64,000 nt of DNA, from assembly GCF_002288925.2 (NCBI RefSeq), contig NW_022098000.1:20284281-20348280 (forward strand), in the 5' to 3' direction. The notes under the pieces were generated by a model. The model searched no databases. It was not told the origin of the DNA and saw only the letters and a list, made by a program, of their open reading frames with translations. The position numbers and the translations under genes are program-made. This DNA is from Delphinapterus leucas. Lineage: Eukaryota > Chordata > Mammalia > Artiodactyla > Monodontidae. Positions within the stretch are counted from its first letter, which is position 1; every line of letters begins with the position of its first letter. Shown one piece after another: positions 5,501-56,540 of the stretch.

Positions 5501-5573
5501 AGCCTGAGATTTCTGGATGGGCCAGGATATGAATTATATATGTGGTGGAAGTTTTATGAAAAAGTGGAGTGAG

Positions 5574-20429: not shown

Positions 20430-20818
20430 GTCCTGGAGGATATTATGCTTAGTAAAATGTCAGACAGAGAAAGACAAATACTGTATGTTTTTACTTATAT
20501 GTGGAATCTAAAAAATAAAACAACAAAGGAGTATAAAAACACAGAAGTAGACTCAAATACAGAGAACAAACTGGTGGCTACCAATGGAGAGAGGGTAGAG
20601 GAGGGACAAGATAGGTGAAGGGGATTAAGAGGTACAAACTACTAGGTATAAAATAAATAAGACACAAGGACATAATGTACAGCACAGGGAATATAGCCAA
20701 TACTTTATAATAACTTTACATGGAGTAAGAGCTATAAAAATATCAATCACTATGCTGTATACCTGAAACTAATATAATATTATAAGTCAACTATACTTCA
20801 GTTAAAATAATTAATTAA
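20430..20818 (+). mobile_element. L1 3' UTR, sense
   Basis: Sense L1 3' end: 'ggaggatattatgcttagta', 'tacttatatgtggaatctaa', 'ggtggctaccaatggagaga', 'agcacagggaatatagccaa', 'ctatgctgtatacctgaaac', and 'aagtcaactatacttcagtt' at the tail. It lies opposite to the surrounding older L1 and is less diverged, so it is probably a later insertion into it. Confidence 0.85.
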
Positions 20819-20819
20819 A

Positions 20820-21405
20820 TGTTTTCCTTAGGCATTTTTTTGTTTCAGTGGAATGTAACTGTCTGGAAACTTTTTTTAAAAGAAAGTTTTTGTAAACAGT
20901 ACATTTCTTTTGCTCTTGCACTTGAATGCTAGCTTGACTGGGCATGAAATTCCTGGTCAAAGTAATGCCATCTCTGAATTTTGAGGATATTGTTTCATTG
21001 TCTAGCACTCAGTGTTGTCAATGGGAACTCTGATGCCAATCTGATTCTTTTGGCTTTGTGGGCAATATTTTTTTCAAAACATTTTGTGATTTGGTAATAA
21101 TATTTGTGAAATTTTACAAAAGTGAGCTTAGGATACCTATTTGCTAATCCCTTTGGAAACTGAGTCTACTCATTATGGAATCTTTCAATATTCAGTCTTA
21201 TTTATCTTTAGCTCTGCTACTTATCAGTTTATCTCATTCAGCATTTTCATTCTCTCTAGTGTCTTTAGAACTATTTTAAGTAGGTGTTGGCCTCTGGACA
21301 CAGTCTCAGTATGTGTTTATTTCTATTTAATAATTTTCATCTCTTTGTTGTTTAGTGATTATTCTGGGAGAATTCTCTGACTCTCTCCACATATTATTCT
21401 CCCAA
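20820..21405 (-). mobile_element. old L1 fragment
   Basis: 'gcatgaaattcctggtcaaa', 'ttgaggatattgtttcattg', 'tgatgccaatctgattcttt' resemble the antisense L1 segment around ORF1. It probably continues the element broken by the insertion at 20430. Confidence 0.45.
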
Positions 21406-21422: not shown

Positions 21423-21779
21423 TATTTAAAAAAGTTATTTATTTTATTTATTTATTTTTGGCTGCGTTGGGTCTTCGTTGCTGTGTGTGGGCTTTCTCTA
21501 GTTGCGGCGACCGGGGGCTACTCTTCGCTGCGGTGCACGGGCTTCTCATTGTGGTGGCTTCTCTTGTTGTGGAGCATGGGGTCTAGGCGTGTGGGCTTCA
21601 GTAGTTGTAGCACGCAGGCTCAGTACTTGTGGCTCATGGGCTCTAGAGCACAGGCTCAGTAGTTGTGGCGCATGGGCTTAGTTGCTCCGTGGCATGTGGG
21701 ATCTTCCCAGACCAGGAATCGAACCCGTGTTCCCTGCATTGGCAGGCAGATTCTTAACCACTGCACCACCAGGGAAGCC
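21423..21779 (-). mobile_element. long CHR-related SINE (357 bases)
   Basis: Antisense. The tRNA head (21700-21779) resembles the other copies, with 'aaccactgcaccaccaggga' and the B-box complement 'gaacccgtgttccctgcatt'. The body is much longer and made of related units beginning cagtagttg or cagtacttg (near 21600, 21630, 21657), joined to 'gggtcttcgttgctgtgtgt' and an A/T-rich tail. A 17-base target duplication (ccctccctaactttatt) lies at 21406-21422 and 21780-21796. Confidence 0.9.
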
Positions 21780-21796
21780 CCCTCCCTAACTTTATT

Positions 21797-35430: not shown

Positions 35431-36508
35431 ATGAAATTATAGGCTGCAATTACATGACAACAAAAGATCTCATCAGTGCAATAAAGTATGCAATTTTAGC
35501 ATACTTTTAGCGCTGTATATCCAGCTACTTTATTACCATAACCTTATTCATACAAACAAGGGACTAGATACTCTTATTGAGGCACCAGAAACAAATTGAG
35601 ATTCAGAAAGATACTAGGCTTCCTGGAAACAGGGCAGATTTGTCATCTATGTTTCATAGTCACTGAATAATCATGAACAGATTATTCTACAAAGTATCCC
35701 TGTAAACCAGAAAATGTTATTTCAGTTTAAAGTTATTATAAAATATTGCCTATATTTTCCTGTACTGTACAACGTATCCCTGTCACTTACTTATTTTATA
35801 AGTAGCAGTTTGTACCTCTTAATCCCTGACTCCTATCTTGCCCCTCCCCACTTCCCTCTCCTCACAGGTGACCACTAGTTTGTTCTCTGTATCTGTGAGT
35901 CTGTTTCTGTTTTGTTATATTCATTCCTTTGTTTTATTTTTAGATTCCACATATAAATGATAACATATAGTATTTGTCTTTCTCTGTCTTACTTATTTCA
36001 CTAAGCATAATACCCTCTAGGTCTATCCCTGCTGTTGCAAACGGCAGAATTTCATTTTTTTGTGACTAATATTACACTGTATGTATATATTAATTCCATA
36101 TCTTGGCTATTGTAAGTAATGCTGCTATGAAAATTGAGGTGCATATATCTTTTTGAATTAGTGTTTTCGGCTTTTTTTGATACATACCCAGGAGTGGATT
36201 GCCGGATCATATGGTACTTCTATTTTCAGTCTTTTGAGGATCCTCCATACTGTTTTACATAGTGGCTGCACCAATTTTACATTTCCACCAACAGAGTACT
36301 AGGGTTCCCTTTTCTACATTCCTCCCCAACATTTGTTATTTATAGACTCTTTGATGATAGCCATTCTGACAGGAGTGAGATGATATCTCATTGTAGTTTT
36401 GATTTACATTTTCCTGATGATTGATGATGTTGAACGTATTTTCATGGACCTGTTGGCCATCTGTATGTCTTCCTTGGAATAATGTCTATTCATACCTTCT
36501 GCCCATTT

Positions 36509-36976
36509 TTAAATTGGAATGTTTGGGTTTTTGCTATTGAGTTGTATGAGTTCTTTGTATATTTTGGATATTAGCCTCTTATCAGATATATCATTTGCAA
36601 TTATTTTCTCCCATTCAGTAGAATATCTTTCCATTTTGTTGATGGTATCCTCTGCTGTGCAGAAGCCTTTTAGTTTGTTTATTTTCGCTTTTGTTGCTTT
36701 TGCTTTTGGTGTCAGATTCAAAAAAATCATCTCCAAGTCCGATGCCGAGGAACTAATGCTTATGTTTTCTTCTAGGAGTTTAATGGTTTCAGGTCTCACA
36801 TTCAAGTCTTTAATCCCTTTTGAGTTAATTTTTGTGTTCAGTGTAAGATAGTGGCCCAGTTTCATTCTTTTGCATCTGGCTGTGCAGTTTTCCCAAGACC
36901 ATTTATTGAAGAGACTGTTCTTTCCCATTGTATATTCCTGGCTCCCTTGTTGTAAATTAATTGACCATATATGCAT
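36509..36976 (-). pseudogene. L1 ORF2 C-terminal remnant
   Basis: A 155-codon open stretch of the L1 above. It contains [62 protein letters not shown] and [19 protein letters not shown], the cysteine-rich C-terminal part of mammalian L1 ORF2. The usual sequence between KINK and K(L)KGFC is shortened. A fragment of a dead ORF2, not a gene. Confidence 0.9.
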
Positions 36977-37145
36977 TTATTTCTGGGGTCTCTATTCTGG
37001 TCCATTGGTCTATGTGTCTATTTTTATGCTGATACCAAGCTACTTTCATACTATAGCTTTGTAATATAGTTTGAAATCAGGGAGTGTGATGCCTCCAGCT
37101 TTTTTCTTTCTCAAAATTGCCTTGGCTATATGGGGTATTTTGTGA

Positions 37146-39355: not shown

Positions 39356-39658
39356 CTATCTGGATGATCTATCCATTGATGTAAGTGGTGCATTAAAGTC
39401 CTTTGCTATTATTGTATATCTGTCTATTTCTCCTTTTAGGTCTGTCAATATTTGCTTTGTATATTTAGGTACTCCTGTGTTGGGTGTATAAATATTTACA
39501 AATGTTATATCCTCTTGTTGGACTGACCCCTTTACCATTATGTAACACCCTTCTTTGACTCTTACTACAGTCTTTGTTTTAAAATTTATTTTGTCTGGTA
39601 TGAGTATAGCTACTCCAGCTTTCTTCTGGTTTCCATTTGTATGGAATATCTTTTTCAT
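39356..39658 (-). pseudogene. L1 ORF2 endonuclease remnant
   Basis: A 100-codon open stretch: KKIFHTNGNQKKAGVAILIPDKINFKTKT, then EGCYIMVKGSVQQEDITFVNIYTPN, ILTDLKGEIDRYTIIAKDFN and MDRSSR. This is the apurinic endonuclease domain at the ORF2 N terminus. NIYTPN replaces the usual NIYAPN, and the GDFN motif with its catalytic Asp-Asn pair reads KDFN. Confidence 0.9.
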
Positions 39659-40004
39659 CCCTTCACTTTCAATCTGTGTGTGTCCTTACATCTAAAGTAT
39701 GTCTCTGTAAGCAGCACATAAATGATTATTGTCTTTTTATCTGTTTAGCCACTCTATGTCTTGACTGGAGAATTTAGTCCATTTACATTTAAAGTAATTA
39801 TTGATAGGTATGTGCTTATTGCCATATTGTTAAATTTTTCTAGCTGTTTTTGTACTTCTTCTTTGTTCCTTTCTTCTTCTCTTGCTCTCTTCCTTTGTGG
39901 TTTGATGACTTTCTTTAGTTATATGCTTAAATTCCTTTCTCTTTATCTTTTGTGTATTTACTATAGGTTTTTACTTTGTGGCTACCATGAGGCTTACATG
40001 TTAT

Positions 40005-43854: not shown

Positions 43855-44057
43855 TATATTTAAAATAGTTAATCAACAGAGACCTACTGTATACCACAGG
43901 GAACTCTGCTCAATATTCTGTAATAACCTAAACAGGAAAAGAATTTGAAAAAGAATAGGGTACATGTATATGTATAACTGATTCACTTTGCTGTACACCT
44001 GAAACTAACACATTGTTAATCAACTATACTCCAGTATAAAATTTAAAAATTTTTAAA
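43855..44057 (+). mobile_element. L1 3' end, sense
   Basis: Sense L1 3' UTR terminus: 'agagacctactgtataccac', 'agggaactctgctcaatatt', 'gaaaaagaatagggtacatg', 'tgattcactttgctgtacac', 'ctgaaactaacacattgtta'. A 12-base target duplication (aatactttttta) lies at 43843-43854 and 44058-44069. Relatively young. Confidence 0.9.
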
Positions 44058-44339
44058 AATACTTTTTTAAATGATAAATTTGTCAAATTCTAGGGCCTTG
44101 AAAAGGAGGCCTCCATGCTGCATTTTTCTAAAGTTTCCATTTCCTTCATTCTTCACTGTAACTATATTGTGTTTTCCTTTGACTTTCTTTCCTTGCTGCT
44201 GGGTAAATTGATCCTTCTTCATATTTGTTTCCCCAAACTCCCTCAACTTCATGTATCTCTTGGCACAGGGCTACCTATAAGCACCTTAGAAAATAGAGCA
44301 AAACAGAATATTCAGCTATGTGGCTAATGGGGTAGCATA

Positions 44340-44960: not shown

Positions 44961-46044
44961 CAACATACCGCACTGTCTCTCTAAAAACAAATAAACAATG
45001 ACAATGGCAACAAAAACAGTACATTAAAAAGTGTGATAAAGAAAGGAGGATATCCAGTAGGAAACAGAGGAATACTTTGTCTCTGCATCATTATCTCAGC
45101 TGGTCAGCTGTTCTTGCTAAGCCCTCTGGTCATTGTCCTTGTTTGTAGATCTGTGTATCATGTGTGAAACACACAATACCTTTTTCATAGTGTCTGTCTT
45201 CTGAGAATTTCAAAATTCACATAATAAATATTTCCTGGTGTCTTAGTAAATGTTTTTTGTTGTTTTATCTAGTAATAATCCTTGTTTAACACAAATTAAG
45301 CTTCAGAGAGTTGAAAAGTTTGTACCCATTCCCAGTCTGCAAATAATGCATGCTCTGAGATTATATTCATAGTGTTTTTTCTTGACTAGTGGTTTCCTGT
45401 TATTGGGCTCAGAAAATGCATATAAAAAGTGCAAACATTACTGGCATAAATATGGTATGTCACCAAAAACTGCTGTGGAAACTCAAAGATAGATAAGAAA
45501 TAATGAGGCTTATAGATTCATTAGCATTTGAATGATGAAACATGTATATGTGTTACTTCTTTGATCAATACTGCCCTGGAGGGAAAGTACTGTATTTAAT
45601 TGTCTTTCACAGACCTTCCACTGTGGACATCTGGTTGTTATGCAGTCCTGTAGCAGGACATTTCATTGCCTCAGTGTTGTAGAATTCAAGTTGCTATTTT
45701 ATTACCAGCGATGGTATATGTTATGAGAAAAACGTATGAAAAGCATGGTCAAAATGCTGGAAACACAGCCAGGAGGGTGCCTCTATTCTCTCTGCATTGC
45801 CTGGACTTGACTAGGAGGCATGCTATAGGTAAACATGTCATATCATTCTAGGTAGTTTTCAAATTTGAGTGTTTTATTATATGTGTTGTTTTAATTATCT
45901 ACATCTGTGAGCTATTTCATTAGATGAGTTCCACTGCATTATGAATGCTTCCTTTTCGTAGACGCCTTTCATTTTGAAATCTCACAAATTTGTGAACTTT
46001 GCATATGCATAAAAGGCCAAGGCAATGTTTAATTGTGGGGAAAA
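44961..46044. other. unassigned non-coding sequence
   Basis: A weak antisense MIR-like segment lies near 45285-45360. Otherwise nothing recognisable. Confidence 0.35.
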
Positions 46045-46240
46045 AATCAAGTGCATTAGAGGCAGAGAGACCTGGCATCAAGTGCTGACATCATTGTTTT
46101 CCAGCTATGTGATTTTTCAGGAAATTATTCAATCCATGAATGCGTTACTTTCCCAATCTGTGAAATGGGGACATTAGTACCTATCTCATGGAATCTTAAA
46201 CAAGTAGCACAAATAAAAAAGCCTGACTCATTGTGTAAAT
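46045..46240 (+). mobile_element. MIR SINE fossil
   Basis: Sense MIR: 'gaggcagagagacctggcat', 'gttttccagctatgtgattt', 'gttactttcccaatctgtga', 'aatggggacattagtaccta', 'tctcatggaatcttaaacaa'. Confidence 0.8.
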
Positions 46241-46279
46241 TATTTTCTTTCTCCCTTTTACCTCTTCTCAGTTATCTGT

Positions 46280-46427
46280 ACTGACGAAGTATTCAGAGTG
46301 AGCTAGTGTACGTAGTAATAATCTAAAACAAAATTTAGTAAAAGTTTATTTTTTTTAACTAGAAATGTATTAGATGATGTTTATGGGGGAGGGGCAGAGG
46401 TTTGCCTAGTTGAAGCTTGTATTAAAA
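46280..46427 (+). repeat. left arm of a 148-base inverted repeat
   Basis: This arm and 48019-48166 are reverse complements over 148 bases with two mismatches (near 46286 g/a and near 46410 g/c), including an identical 8-base T/A run. Neither arm resembles a transposon I know. The match stops abruptly at both ends. See the matching arm and the findings. Confidence 0.97.
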
Positions 46428-47430
46428 TTAGGTACCTCGGTGCTGGCCAGTTAACGTGGAGGAGTGTGCTGCAGAAGCAAACACACGGCTGATGGGAGCT
46501 AGCAGCCAGTGTGGATGTCAAATATACCCTGAATAATCTGTAAGTGGATAACTGAGAATTTCTTATATTTAGTTTCTATGCTTATGACCTGGTGGCACAC
46601 ATGAGGGATGGGGTAATCCAGGAGTTAATGGAGGGCAAATTTTAAAATGCCCCGAAACTTATCTTGCTATAGAGAAGGATGCCGGTGCCTACCAGGTTTC
46701 TGCTTGTTAATTTCTGTGGTTGCTGCTACTGGGGAGATTGTCCTCATTTGCATTGTCTTTCAGTGACCTACCTGGAGGCAAACACCTGCAGACACTTTAT
46801 GTTCACAGAAGTATCACTTGGGACAGAGACCCACATCCATTCAGTGCAGCCAACTATGTTAAAATAACATTATGGGCAAATATTTCAAAGCTTAACATTT
46901 CAAATGGTCGCTTCACATACTATTTTACCCTCTCTTATTGCTCTTGAGTAATATATATCGCTGCCAACATAACTTCTTGGCCACTCCTTGGCCCTGTGTT
47001 TTTAACTTTTCAGATGGAATTCTTACAGAGTTTTAATTGTAGGTTCAGTAGCTGCATTCACTTTTTTTAAGAGAAAAGAAAAAGTCCCTGGTGAAAGAAT
47101 GACTTGATTTCAGTGGGGAAAAAAAAAAGAATAAAAAAATAAAGCGGAAATGCATTTGGAAATGCGATTAGTTATATGTTACTTACAAATTATGCATGTG
47201 TGTATGATTACATATTAAAGAGATCTGTTATAAAATTTATCATTTGCATATTGTACCATATATAAATTTGTTTATTCTAAATATAAGTATATATGTATGT
47301 ATAATGAAAAATATATATTGTCCACATAATTATAATTTATAAATTTTACATTGGAAGAAAAATGGTCTGGACAGGAAAATTCTGAATGTGTATTAGCATT
47401 TTTTAAGAGGTATAAGTTTTTAAAAAAAAA
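46428..47430. other. left part of the inverted-repeat spacer
   Basis: No gene seen. An AT-rich stretch lies at 47275-47325. Open frames at 46679-46947 overlap in two plus-strand frames and have no recognisable protein content. Confidence 0.4.
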
Positions 47431-47438
47431 TTATGTCC

Positions 47439-47635
47439 GGGGCTTTCCTGGTGGCGCAGTGGTTGAGAGTCCGCCTGCTGATGCAGGGGACATGGGTTCG
47501 TGCCCCGGTCCGGGAAGATCCCACATGCCGCGGAGCGGCTGGGCCCGTGAGCCATGGCCGCTGAGCCTGCGCGTCCGGCAACGGGAGAGGCCACAACAGT
47601 GAGAGGCCCGCGTACCGCAAAAAAAAAAAAAAAAA
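47439..47635 (+). mobile_element. CHR-type SINE with a body deletion
   Basis: Sense copy inside the inverted-repeat spacer. A target duplication of about 17 bases (aaaaaaaaattatgtcc) lies at 47422-47438 and 47627-47643. Compared with the other copies, about 13 bases are missing after 'gcctgcgcgtccgg' (47579), the segment that reads agcctgtgctccg elsewhere. Otherwise CpG-rich and young-looking. Confidence 0.95.
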
Positions 47636-47643
47636 TTATGTCC

Positions 47644-48018
47644 TTTGACATAGAATTCAGAATTCTCCGAAATAATGGTTTGGAGTTGAAATGTTTCCTT
47701 TCTTGAATTAATGTTCAAAGTCTTGTTTTATTTAATTAATTTATTTTTATTTGTATGTATGTATGTGCTTTAATAGTTATAGCAAAATAGATTCAGCTAG
47801 TTTGGGGTTACATGAGATTTTTTTTTTTTAAAGTACTTCTTCCCTCTGTAATGTCAAGATACTGTTTACACTGAAGCTATAAACTTTATGTTGGCTTAGT
47901 TACAGAGCTCACTGAAGGAGGAAATGAGTCATATTTAAAGAAAAATAGGTTAACAATTTTCAAAGTGATCATGACAGATTAAAATGTTTAGCACAAATGC
48001 AGTCAAAATGCATTTTAC
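47644..48018. other. right part of the inverted-repeat spacer
   Basis: Unassigned AT-rich sequence with (TGTA)n-like units near 47751-47765. Confidence 0.4.
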
Positions 48019-48166
48019 TTTTAATACAAGCTTCAAGTAGGCAAACCTCTGCCCCTCCCCCATAAACATCATCTAATACATTTCTAGTTAAAAAAAATAA
48101 ACTTTTACTAAATTTTGTTTTAGATTATTACTACGTACACTAGCTCACTCTGAATACTTTGTCAGT
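48019..48166 (-). repeat. right arm of the 148-base inverted repeat
   Basis: Reverse complement of 46280-46427. Spacer 1,591 bases. Arm identity is about 98.6 percent, well above that of the surrounding ancient repeats. Confidence 0.97.
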
Positions 48167-48880
48167 TATTATTTTTTTTAATGGCTGAAATAACTAAAAA
48201 GTCTGCCTTAAAGACTTCTTTCCCTTAGGCAGCCATACTTAAAGATTCTGGTGTTTAGGTTTTAGCTTTTCATTTAGCCCCTACTTAACCATGGAAATAA
48301 AGAATAAAATTTGGGGTATTTTATATACATGACATTCACCAATTAATCTTTTTACTGGTATTGAGAAGCATCAGGTAAATCCTCTAACGACTACTGGTGG
48401 TAGATTGGGTTCATGTGTATTTTGAAGAAGAGGAAACTGAGAGACAGAAAGGAAATATTATGTTACATACACATGCAGAGACGGGATGTGGTCATAAATA
48501 TATTCTACTTAACGATCCTAGGACTCACATTATAAGAGCAAACAGCAGATGAACTCCCATTTCCAGTAAGGCTACAAAGCCCCTGGCCAAGACACCTTCA
48601 TTCCTTCATTGCCATGCAATAGCTATCATCCTGCTAGCGCCTGCGTCTTTTCTCCTCAACTCGACTGCGGCTTATGAGGATTTATACTTTCTTATTACCG
48701 TCCTAGTCCACTCTGTCCAACATTCTACTTTCCATAAGGATCAAGTTTTATTAGATATTTGGTCGAAAAAAATTCCTGTGAGTATTGTAGTGCACATAGA
48801 ATGATTTACTTTATAGAGTTAAAATATTTGAAGAAATGAAAGGAATACAGTGGATGCTAAAATAAGTGAGGCTTTTTAGA
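48167..48880. other. unassigned; weak MIR trace
   Basis: 48395-48500 may be an antisense MIR ('gaagaggaaactgagagaca' then 'acatgcagagacgggatgtg'). The rest is not recognised. Confidence 0.35.
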
Positions 48881-48884
48881 AATT

Positions 48885-49010
48885 ATTATTATTTTTTAAA
48901 AACTTTTTATTTTATATTGGGGTACAGCCAATTAACAATGTTGTGATAGTTTCAGGTGCACAGCAATGATATCTATTGATGTGATTCATACATCTCGGAA
49001 CTAAGTTCAG
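48885..49010 (-). mobile_element. L1 3' end
   Basis: 'ttgggg', 'tacagccaattaacaatgtt', 'gtgatagtttcaggtgcaca' then gcaatga is the antisense extreme 3' end of a cetartiodactyl L1. 5'-truncated to about 125 bases. The target duplication is unclear. Confidence 0.8.
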
Positions 49011-54959: not shown

Positions 54960-56540
54960 GAATTTTAGAGTATTTTAACACTCTCAAAATAAATCTCATA
55001 CACTTTTAGCTCTCACCCCCTATTCTCCCAACCCCCTCCTCCTAGCTGTAGGCACCTACTAACCTACTTTCTGTCAACATAGCTTTCCCCGTTCTGGACA
55101 TTTCATATGAGTGGAATATATATGTTATCTTTTGTGACTAGCTTCTTTCACTTAGCATCATGTTTTCAAGGTTCATCCATGTTGTAGCATGTATCAGTAC
55201 TTCCTTTCTTTTTTATGGCCAAGTAATATTCCGCTGTATGGATATACCATATTTTGTTTCTCTTTTTATCAGTAATTGACACCTGGGTTGTTTCCACCTT
55301 TGGCCTATTGTGAATAAGGCAGCTATGAACATTTGTGTTTAAGTTTCTTTGTGGACATCTGTCTTAATTTCTCTTACATATATATCCAGGAGTAGAATTC
55401 TGAATCATATGGTGACTCTGTGTTTAATCTTTTGAGGAACTGCCACACTTTTCCAAACTCGCTTTACCATTTTATATTGTCTCCAGCAGTGTATGAGGAT
55501 TCCAACTTTTCTATATCCTCACAAACCGTTGTTATTAGTTGTTAATAATTTTGATTATAGCCAACTTAGTGGCTATGAAGTGGCCTGTCTTTATAGTTTT
55601 AGTTTGTTGTTCCCTGATGGCTAATGATTTCCAGCATCATTTTGGGTGCTTATTGGCCATTTGTATATCTTCCTTGGAGAAATGTCTATTCATATCCTTT
55701 GCGTACTTAGTAACTGGGTTGCCTTTTTACTATTGAGTTGTAAGAGTTCTTTATGTATTATGGATAAAAGTACCTTATCAGATACATGATTTGCAAATAT
55801 TTTCTTCCATTCTGTGGATTGTTTTTTCACTTTCTTGATGGTATCCTTTGAAAAACAGAAGTTTTTAATTTTGATGAAGCCAAATTTACCTATTATTTTT
55901 CTTTTGATGCTTGTGCTTTTGGTGTCATGTCTAAGAATTTTTTGCCCAAACCAAGGTCATGAAGGTTTACCCCTCTATTTTTTTTCTAAGGTATGTAGTT
56001 TTAACTCTTATTTTAAGTCTTTGATATATTTTGAGTTTGTTTTTACATATGGTGTGAGATAAGGGTCCAAATTAATTCTTCTGCATGGGGCTACCCAGTT
56101 GTCCCAGCACCATTTGTTGAAAGGCTATTGTGTCCCCATTGCATCATCTTGGAAATTTTGTCTGAAAACAGTTGACCATAGATGTATGGATTTATTTATA
56201 GACTTTCAATTCCATTCCATTGATCTGAATGTCTGACCTTGTGCTGGTACCACACTGTCTTGATTACAGTTGCTTTGTAGTGAGTTTTGAAATAAGGAAA
56301 TATGAACCCTCCTACTTTGTTCTTTCTCAAGATTGCTTTGGCTACTCTGGGTCCCTTACAAATTCAGATGAAGAGTAAAATCAGCTTGTCAATTTATATG
56401 TAGAAATCAGATGGGATTCTGATAGGGATTTTGTTGAGACTGCAGATCAGCCGGGGAATATTACCATTTTAACCACGTTAAGTCTTCTGATTCATGAGCA
56501 ATGTATGTGGGATCTACATGTCAAGTCTGCTTCTACTCAG
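54960..56540 (-). mobile_element. old L1, about 1.6 kb (3' UTR and ORF2 end)
   Basis: Antisense L1: 'catatgagtggaatatatat', 'taatattccgctgtatggat', 'ggagtagaattctgaatcat', 'gagaaatgtctattcatatc', 'tttgcaaatattttcttcca', 'cccagcaccatttgttgaaa', 'ttctttctcaagattgcttt'. It spans the 3' UTR and the C-terminal third of ORF2. Stop codons and frameshifts are abundant and no long open frame remains. More diverged than the L1 at 35725. Confidence 0.85.

Follow-up and report, generated by a model that had tools for sequence, protein, structure and literature searches.

The window, that is, the whole stretch of 64,000 nucleotides of Delphinapterus leucas DNA that was analysed, carries two 148-base arms that are reverse complements of each other, with two mismatches and no gaps, on either side of an interior segment (Table 1). 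The original prediction of such a pair, with 1,591 bases between its arms, was borne out by both an inverted-repeat search and an alignment (146 of 148 columns identical), and the presence of the inverted pair in the window is confirmed. The pair can be stretched to 46280-46430 and 48016-48166, respectively, giving arms of 151 nt that are 98% identical (148 of 151 columns, with three mismatches) and leaving 1,585 nt between them. The mismatches are CpG versus CpA at 46286/48160, G versus C at 46409/48037 and T versus G at 46428/48018, and the exact runs along the stretched arms measure 6, 122, 18 and 2 bases. The last of the mismatches is three bases from the inner end, and the final three columns (one mismatch and two matches) are as likely to be chance as to be part of the arm; thus, the arm proper was taken as 148 bp with two mismatches. 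Under independent bases at the composition of the window, an exact inverted match of at least 117 bases is expected approximately 2e-59 times by chance in 64 kb.

Table 1. Features of the inverted pair, its interior and its flanks (positions in the window)
Feature	Position	Strand	Description
Left arm	46280..46427	+	148 bp, can be extended to 46430; apart from itself, it matches just the right arm in the genome
Right arm	48019..48166	-	Left arm in reverse complement, with 2 of 148 bases mismatched
Direct 8-mer TCAGTTAT	46268..46275	+	Just outside the left arm, 4 bp off
Direct 8-mer TCAGTTAT, second copy	48162..48169	+	Spans the right arm's outer edge, 5 bp inside the arm
Interior	46428..48018		1,591 bp; the queried parts (to 47420 and from 47645) were not found a second time, short old repeats aside; part reads N in the assembly
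tRNA-derived SINE in the interior	47440..47635	+	13-nt internal deletion; departs from the 9-copy window consensus at 3 of 142 sites
Old dispersed repeat	46682..46798		Wholly in the interior, off the arm edges; 4 other places in the genome, 74-86%
Second short old repeat	47267..47344		In the interior; 1 other place in the genome, 78%
MIR-like old SINE, left flank	46059..46189	+	Ends 90 bp before the arm; score 69 (highest of 60 shuffles, 34)
MIR-like old SINE, right flank	48344..48473	-	Score 52 (highest of 60 shuffles, 32)

The match had been described as stopping abruptly at both ends, and so it does. Just past the arms, 23 of 60 bases agree on the outer side and 13 of 60 on the inner side, while in gapped alignments over 400 bp the score was reached by 90 of 200 shuffles outward and by 17 of 200 inward. 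Homology extending past the arm edges was therefore undetectable over 60 bp ungapped, and over 400 bp gapped the alignments were not clearly better than the shuffles. The same 60 bp past the edges show no homology that might mark the switch points, microhomology inside an arm being invisible without the empty site. The direct 8-mer near both outer edges occurs at just these two places on the plus strand of the window, with three more occurrences on the minus strand. A match at least as long was found for 1.6% of 4,000 random position pairs, and, as several edge pairings could have been compared, the 8-mer pair is unremarkable. Its copies are not flush with the arms and thus do not form the target-site duplication of a terminal-inverted-repeat (TIR) element.

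Copy number was determined in the assembly from which the window is taken (2,346,454,124 bases, or 2.35 Gb, in 324 contigs), with very common words skipped and with repeat counts as lower bounds. The 148-bp arm, queried alone, had two matches, both being the arms of this pair. The longer queries together spanned 45900-47420, 47645-48060 and 48130-48700, to the left and right of the SINE. For the left flank plus its arm (45900-46430), the interior to the right of the SINE (47645-48060) and the right flank plus 37 bp of arm (48130-48700), the matches were limited to the query itself and the other arm. The interior to the left of the SINE (46400-47420) matched itself, with a gap where the assembly copy reads N, and had five weak matches, four of them (74-86%) to approximately 46682-46798 and one (78%) to approximately 47267-47344. 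Apart from such short old repeats, an alternative copy of the locus was not found in the assembly with the near flanks and the queried interior, and thus there is no pair of rearranged and unrearranged copies within the assembly to be compared.

The window was further surveyed together with 20 control stretches of 10 kb, placed randomly on six contigs of this genome (264 kb in total; 5,336 of the 200,000 control bases read N), for inverted pairs ≥60 bp long and ≥80% identical within 6 kb. Twelve such pairs were found (four in the window and eight in the control stretches). Eleven of them are dispersed repeats, each with 6-33 further copies in the 264 kb, which leaves the arm pair as the sole private case. 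Neither arm has a third copy in the 264 kb, and the control stretches contain no private inverted pair in 200 kb, a sample too small for an estimate of genome-wide rarity. The arms might have proved to be copies of a dispersed repeat, a test that the original prediction had itself named; with two places in the genome and none further in the 264 kb, this candidate was rejected. The arm pair is a private local inverted duplication, neither a transposon nor a chance match. An exact search with a 34-base pattern from the arm, which an ortholog with a single change would escape, found no match in viral or genome contigs, nor did the 2.7-kb region match plasmids or phages, as expected for animal DNA.

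The interior harbours a tRNA-derived SINE, whose target-site duplication was recognized by eye (47422-47438 and a copy ending at 47643), plus the two short old repeats. The old SINE pieces in the flanks were scored against a consensus that we take to be that of MIR. Neither the genome queries of near flanks and interior nor the MIR scoring found a repeat that crosses an arm edge, which would reveal the ancestral order. The GC skew of the interior is +0.134, and that of the immediate flanks is +0.026 and −0.001. Across the window, the skew averages 0.030 (s.d. 0.087; 157 overlapping windows), with 13% of these windows reaching +0.13 and 3% reaching −0.13; the interior is thus within range and has the sign of the mean. 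As a hint against flipping, the skew is at best faint and too weak for an orientation marker, since both immediate flanks are near zero.

Other repeats are spread over the window. A direct pair (36103-37128 and 55300-56344) is 68% identical over 1.06 kb; together with the minus-strand frames 36509-36976 and 39356-39685, it resembles old L1 sequence, but the two frames had no match in Pfam. A short old repeat of 77-81% identity is common to 43988-44059, 48893-48966, 20747-20824 and 1902-1962, and has 15 copies in the 264 kb, the self match counted. Nine near-full SINE copies of approximately 200 bp each are located at 5571, 16098, 27180, 33733, 37646, 47440, 53178, 56565 and 61614, with a shorter and more diverged relative at 21627-21783. 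The nine are 2.1-9.7% off their own consensus (142-155 compared sites); the copy in the interior is the least diverged, the others being at 3.9-9.7%. These SINEs, including that of the interior, we take to be of the CHR type of cetaceans and relatives. CHR-1, CHR-2 and subfamilies with deletions are named in cetaceans in PMC3219603. The surrounding repeats had been described as far more diverged than the arms: this holds for most repeat pairs of the window, but not for the SINE of the interior.

The low divergence of the arms, also part of the original prediction, stands at two differences in 148 sites (exact 95% limits 0.16-4.8%). Assuming rates of 2.2e-9, 1e-9 and 0.5e-9 substitutions per site per year, the arms would be approximately 3, 7 and 14 Myr old, respectively, with limits of <1 to 48 Myr, and such estimates are invalid if gene conversion has acted on the arms. 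The rate given for the humpback whale (1.54e-9 per year in PMC6657726) would place them, by the same arithmetic, at approximately 4 Myr; low substitution rates have been described in cetaceans (PMC6657726) and in baleen whales (PMC6340175). Judged from its sequence, the inverted duplication is thus probably recent, within very wide limits. Given these wide limits, 3 of 142 sites in the SINE and 2 of 148 in the arms do not allow the SINE insertion and the duplication to be put in order.

The duplex that the arms would form as plus-strand RNA is computed at −248.5 kcal/mol, and when the 1,887-nt stretch is folded to minimum energy, 147 of the 151 positions along the arms are paired with their mirror counterpart. 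By this predicted fold, the long hairpin that had been suggested for the arms is possible as RNA, and a strong one would form if the locus were transcribed. In DNA, a spacer of 1.6 kb makes cruciform extrusion unlikely. Among the 29 frames of at least 40 aa that overlap 45800-48700, seven were compared with Pfam (E up to 0.01), and the five lying mostly in the arms or the interior had no match; Rfam had no match in the window at gathering threshold. No sign of function for the inverted pair was seen in the Pfam, Rfam and fold analyses. Arm length and pairing strength are what would speak for a more active locus, where the arms recombine, the 1.6-kb interior flips recurrently (and is polymorphic within the species) and the transcript forms a 148-bp double-stranded RNA subject to editing or processing; we regard this as very doubtful.

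Taken together, the locus carries a real, private and probably recent local inverted duplication, which is a known kind of mutation, and two known mechanisms fit its layout. We favour, at slightly better than even confidence, an origin of one arm as a reverse-complement patch laid down when a polymerase switched templates in the course of replication or of repairing a break (MMBIR type). A nascent 3′ end would have left its template during either process, copied 148 nt from the opposite strand approximately 1.7 kb away and then returned to its own template (MMBIR/FoSTeS type). In this single event, one arm would be the old unique sequence and the other the patch, and the interior would keep its old orientation; the type of event, its single step and the unflipped interior are what we infer. 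Private inverted copies with abrupt edges and low divergence are what the sequence shows, and the privacy of the pair, for which the searches found no dispersed relatives, supports a template switch. So does the lack of extended homology past the edges, which a patch would be expected to show but an old tract cut back by conversion would not. Template switching has been described to create reverse-complement repeats (PMC8794818 and PMC7954356), and two inverted copies of a locally unique sequence with abrupt ends are present here.

A template switch shares its present layout, however, with an inversion by staggered breaks, and a diagnosis from microhomology needs the ancestral sequence. In such an inversion, a segment of approximately 1.6 kb would have been released through staggered single-strand breaks at one of its ends, the 148-nt overhangs there filled in and both breaks end-joined, yielding the order X-D-(Y reversed)-(D reversed)-Z of the 'dupINV' type, which has an inverted duplication at both segment ends just as is found here. 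That duplicated ends are the expected footprint of this process, as the original prediction stated, is indeed published (PMC7584159), and dupINV is a recognized class in human genomes (PMC5338099). In PMC6467913, the median size of human inversions whose breakpoints are outside segmental duplications is 3.4 kb; 227 of the 308 calls are copy-neutral and 79 have a copy-number change, mostly inverted duplications, so that the size and kind of an inversion at this locus would be ordinary. Yet no repeat was found to cross an arm edge and show the reversal, and the GC skew hints, weakly, at the opposite. For a Drosophila inversion, PMC7584159 presents readings of both kinds, with the argument that repair by itself may also leave such duplications. 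The inversion is a serious candidate, which we nevertheless hold to be rather less than an even prospect. A template switch is preferred over it as it takes one event and no flip, which is a judgement of parsimony and not a measurement.

The remaining explanations are less likely. Gene conversion might have maintained the likeness of an older inverted pair, the interior perhaps being flipped repeatedly through recombination between the arms. The identity of the arms is high, and 148 bp may suffice, as the minimal homology for eukaryotic homologous recombination is between 50 and 250 bp (PMC8755829). However, diverged remnants are lacking outside the arms, the edges are as sharp as those of a fresh copy and 2 differences in 148 sites need no conversion; as each arm ends abruptly at both of its edges, a patch copied in or an overhang filled in fits better than an old repeat with a converted core, and conversion is improbable. 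A false inverted copy made in assembly is harder still to credit: the arms are known from the assembled sequence alone and no second copy of the locus was found for comparison, but they differ at two to three separated sites, one of which is the CpG/CpA change expected from ageing, and each arm is flanked by unique sequence of its own. Least of all do we credit a DNA transposon or MITE-like element with the arms as its terminal inverted repeats. The inverted ends and the 8-mer near both outer edges would suit such an element, but the 8-mers do not abut the arm edges (4 bp outside the left arm and overlapping the right arm by 5), no further copy of the arm was found in the genome and the five frames mostly in the arms or interior contain no Pfam domain. 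The candidate was rejected on these grounds.

By itself, the locus represents one ordinary rearrangement, in all likelihood left by a small copying or repair accident of a sort familiar from other animals. It is, on the other hand, a clean case in which staggered-break inversion and template-switch copying, two processes that are hard to tell apart, predict opposite orientations of the interior in a close relative.

Among known systems, the inverted duplications of template switching and MMBIR (the four-point model and templated inverted insertions) resemble the arms in being reverse-complement copies of nearby unique sequence with abrupt ends and hairpin potential (PMC7954356, PMC8794818 and PMC2621351). 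In the short-range set from great apes, fragments have a median of 12 and a maximum of 128 nt, with the template tens to hundreds of nt away (PMC7954356). With 148 nt and approximately 1.7 kb, as read from the present layout alone, the arms exceed that published set and thus were filed only under the wider MMBIR type. The dupINV rearrangements of human genomes have the same present-day layout (PMC7584159 and PMC5338099); their interior is reversed, whereas the interior here is known from its present layout alone. The O7 inversion (PMC7584159) is unlike the locus in that it arose in a complex way and spans 9.9 Mb, its inverted duplications measuring 59 and 534/540 bp. Finally, in the inversions described in PMC8755829, inverted repeats adjoin the segment as the arms do here, but 17-33 nt are inverted between repeats of 3-75 nt, in contrast with the 1.6-kb interior between the 148-bp arms of this locus.
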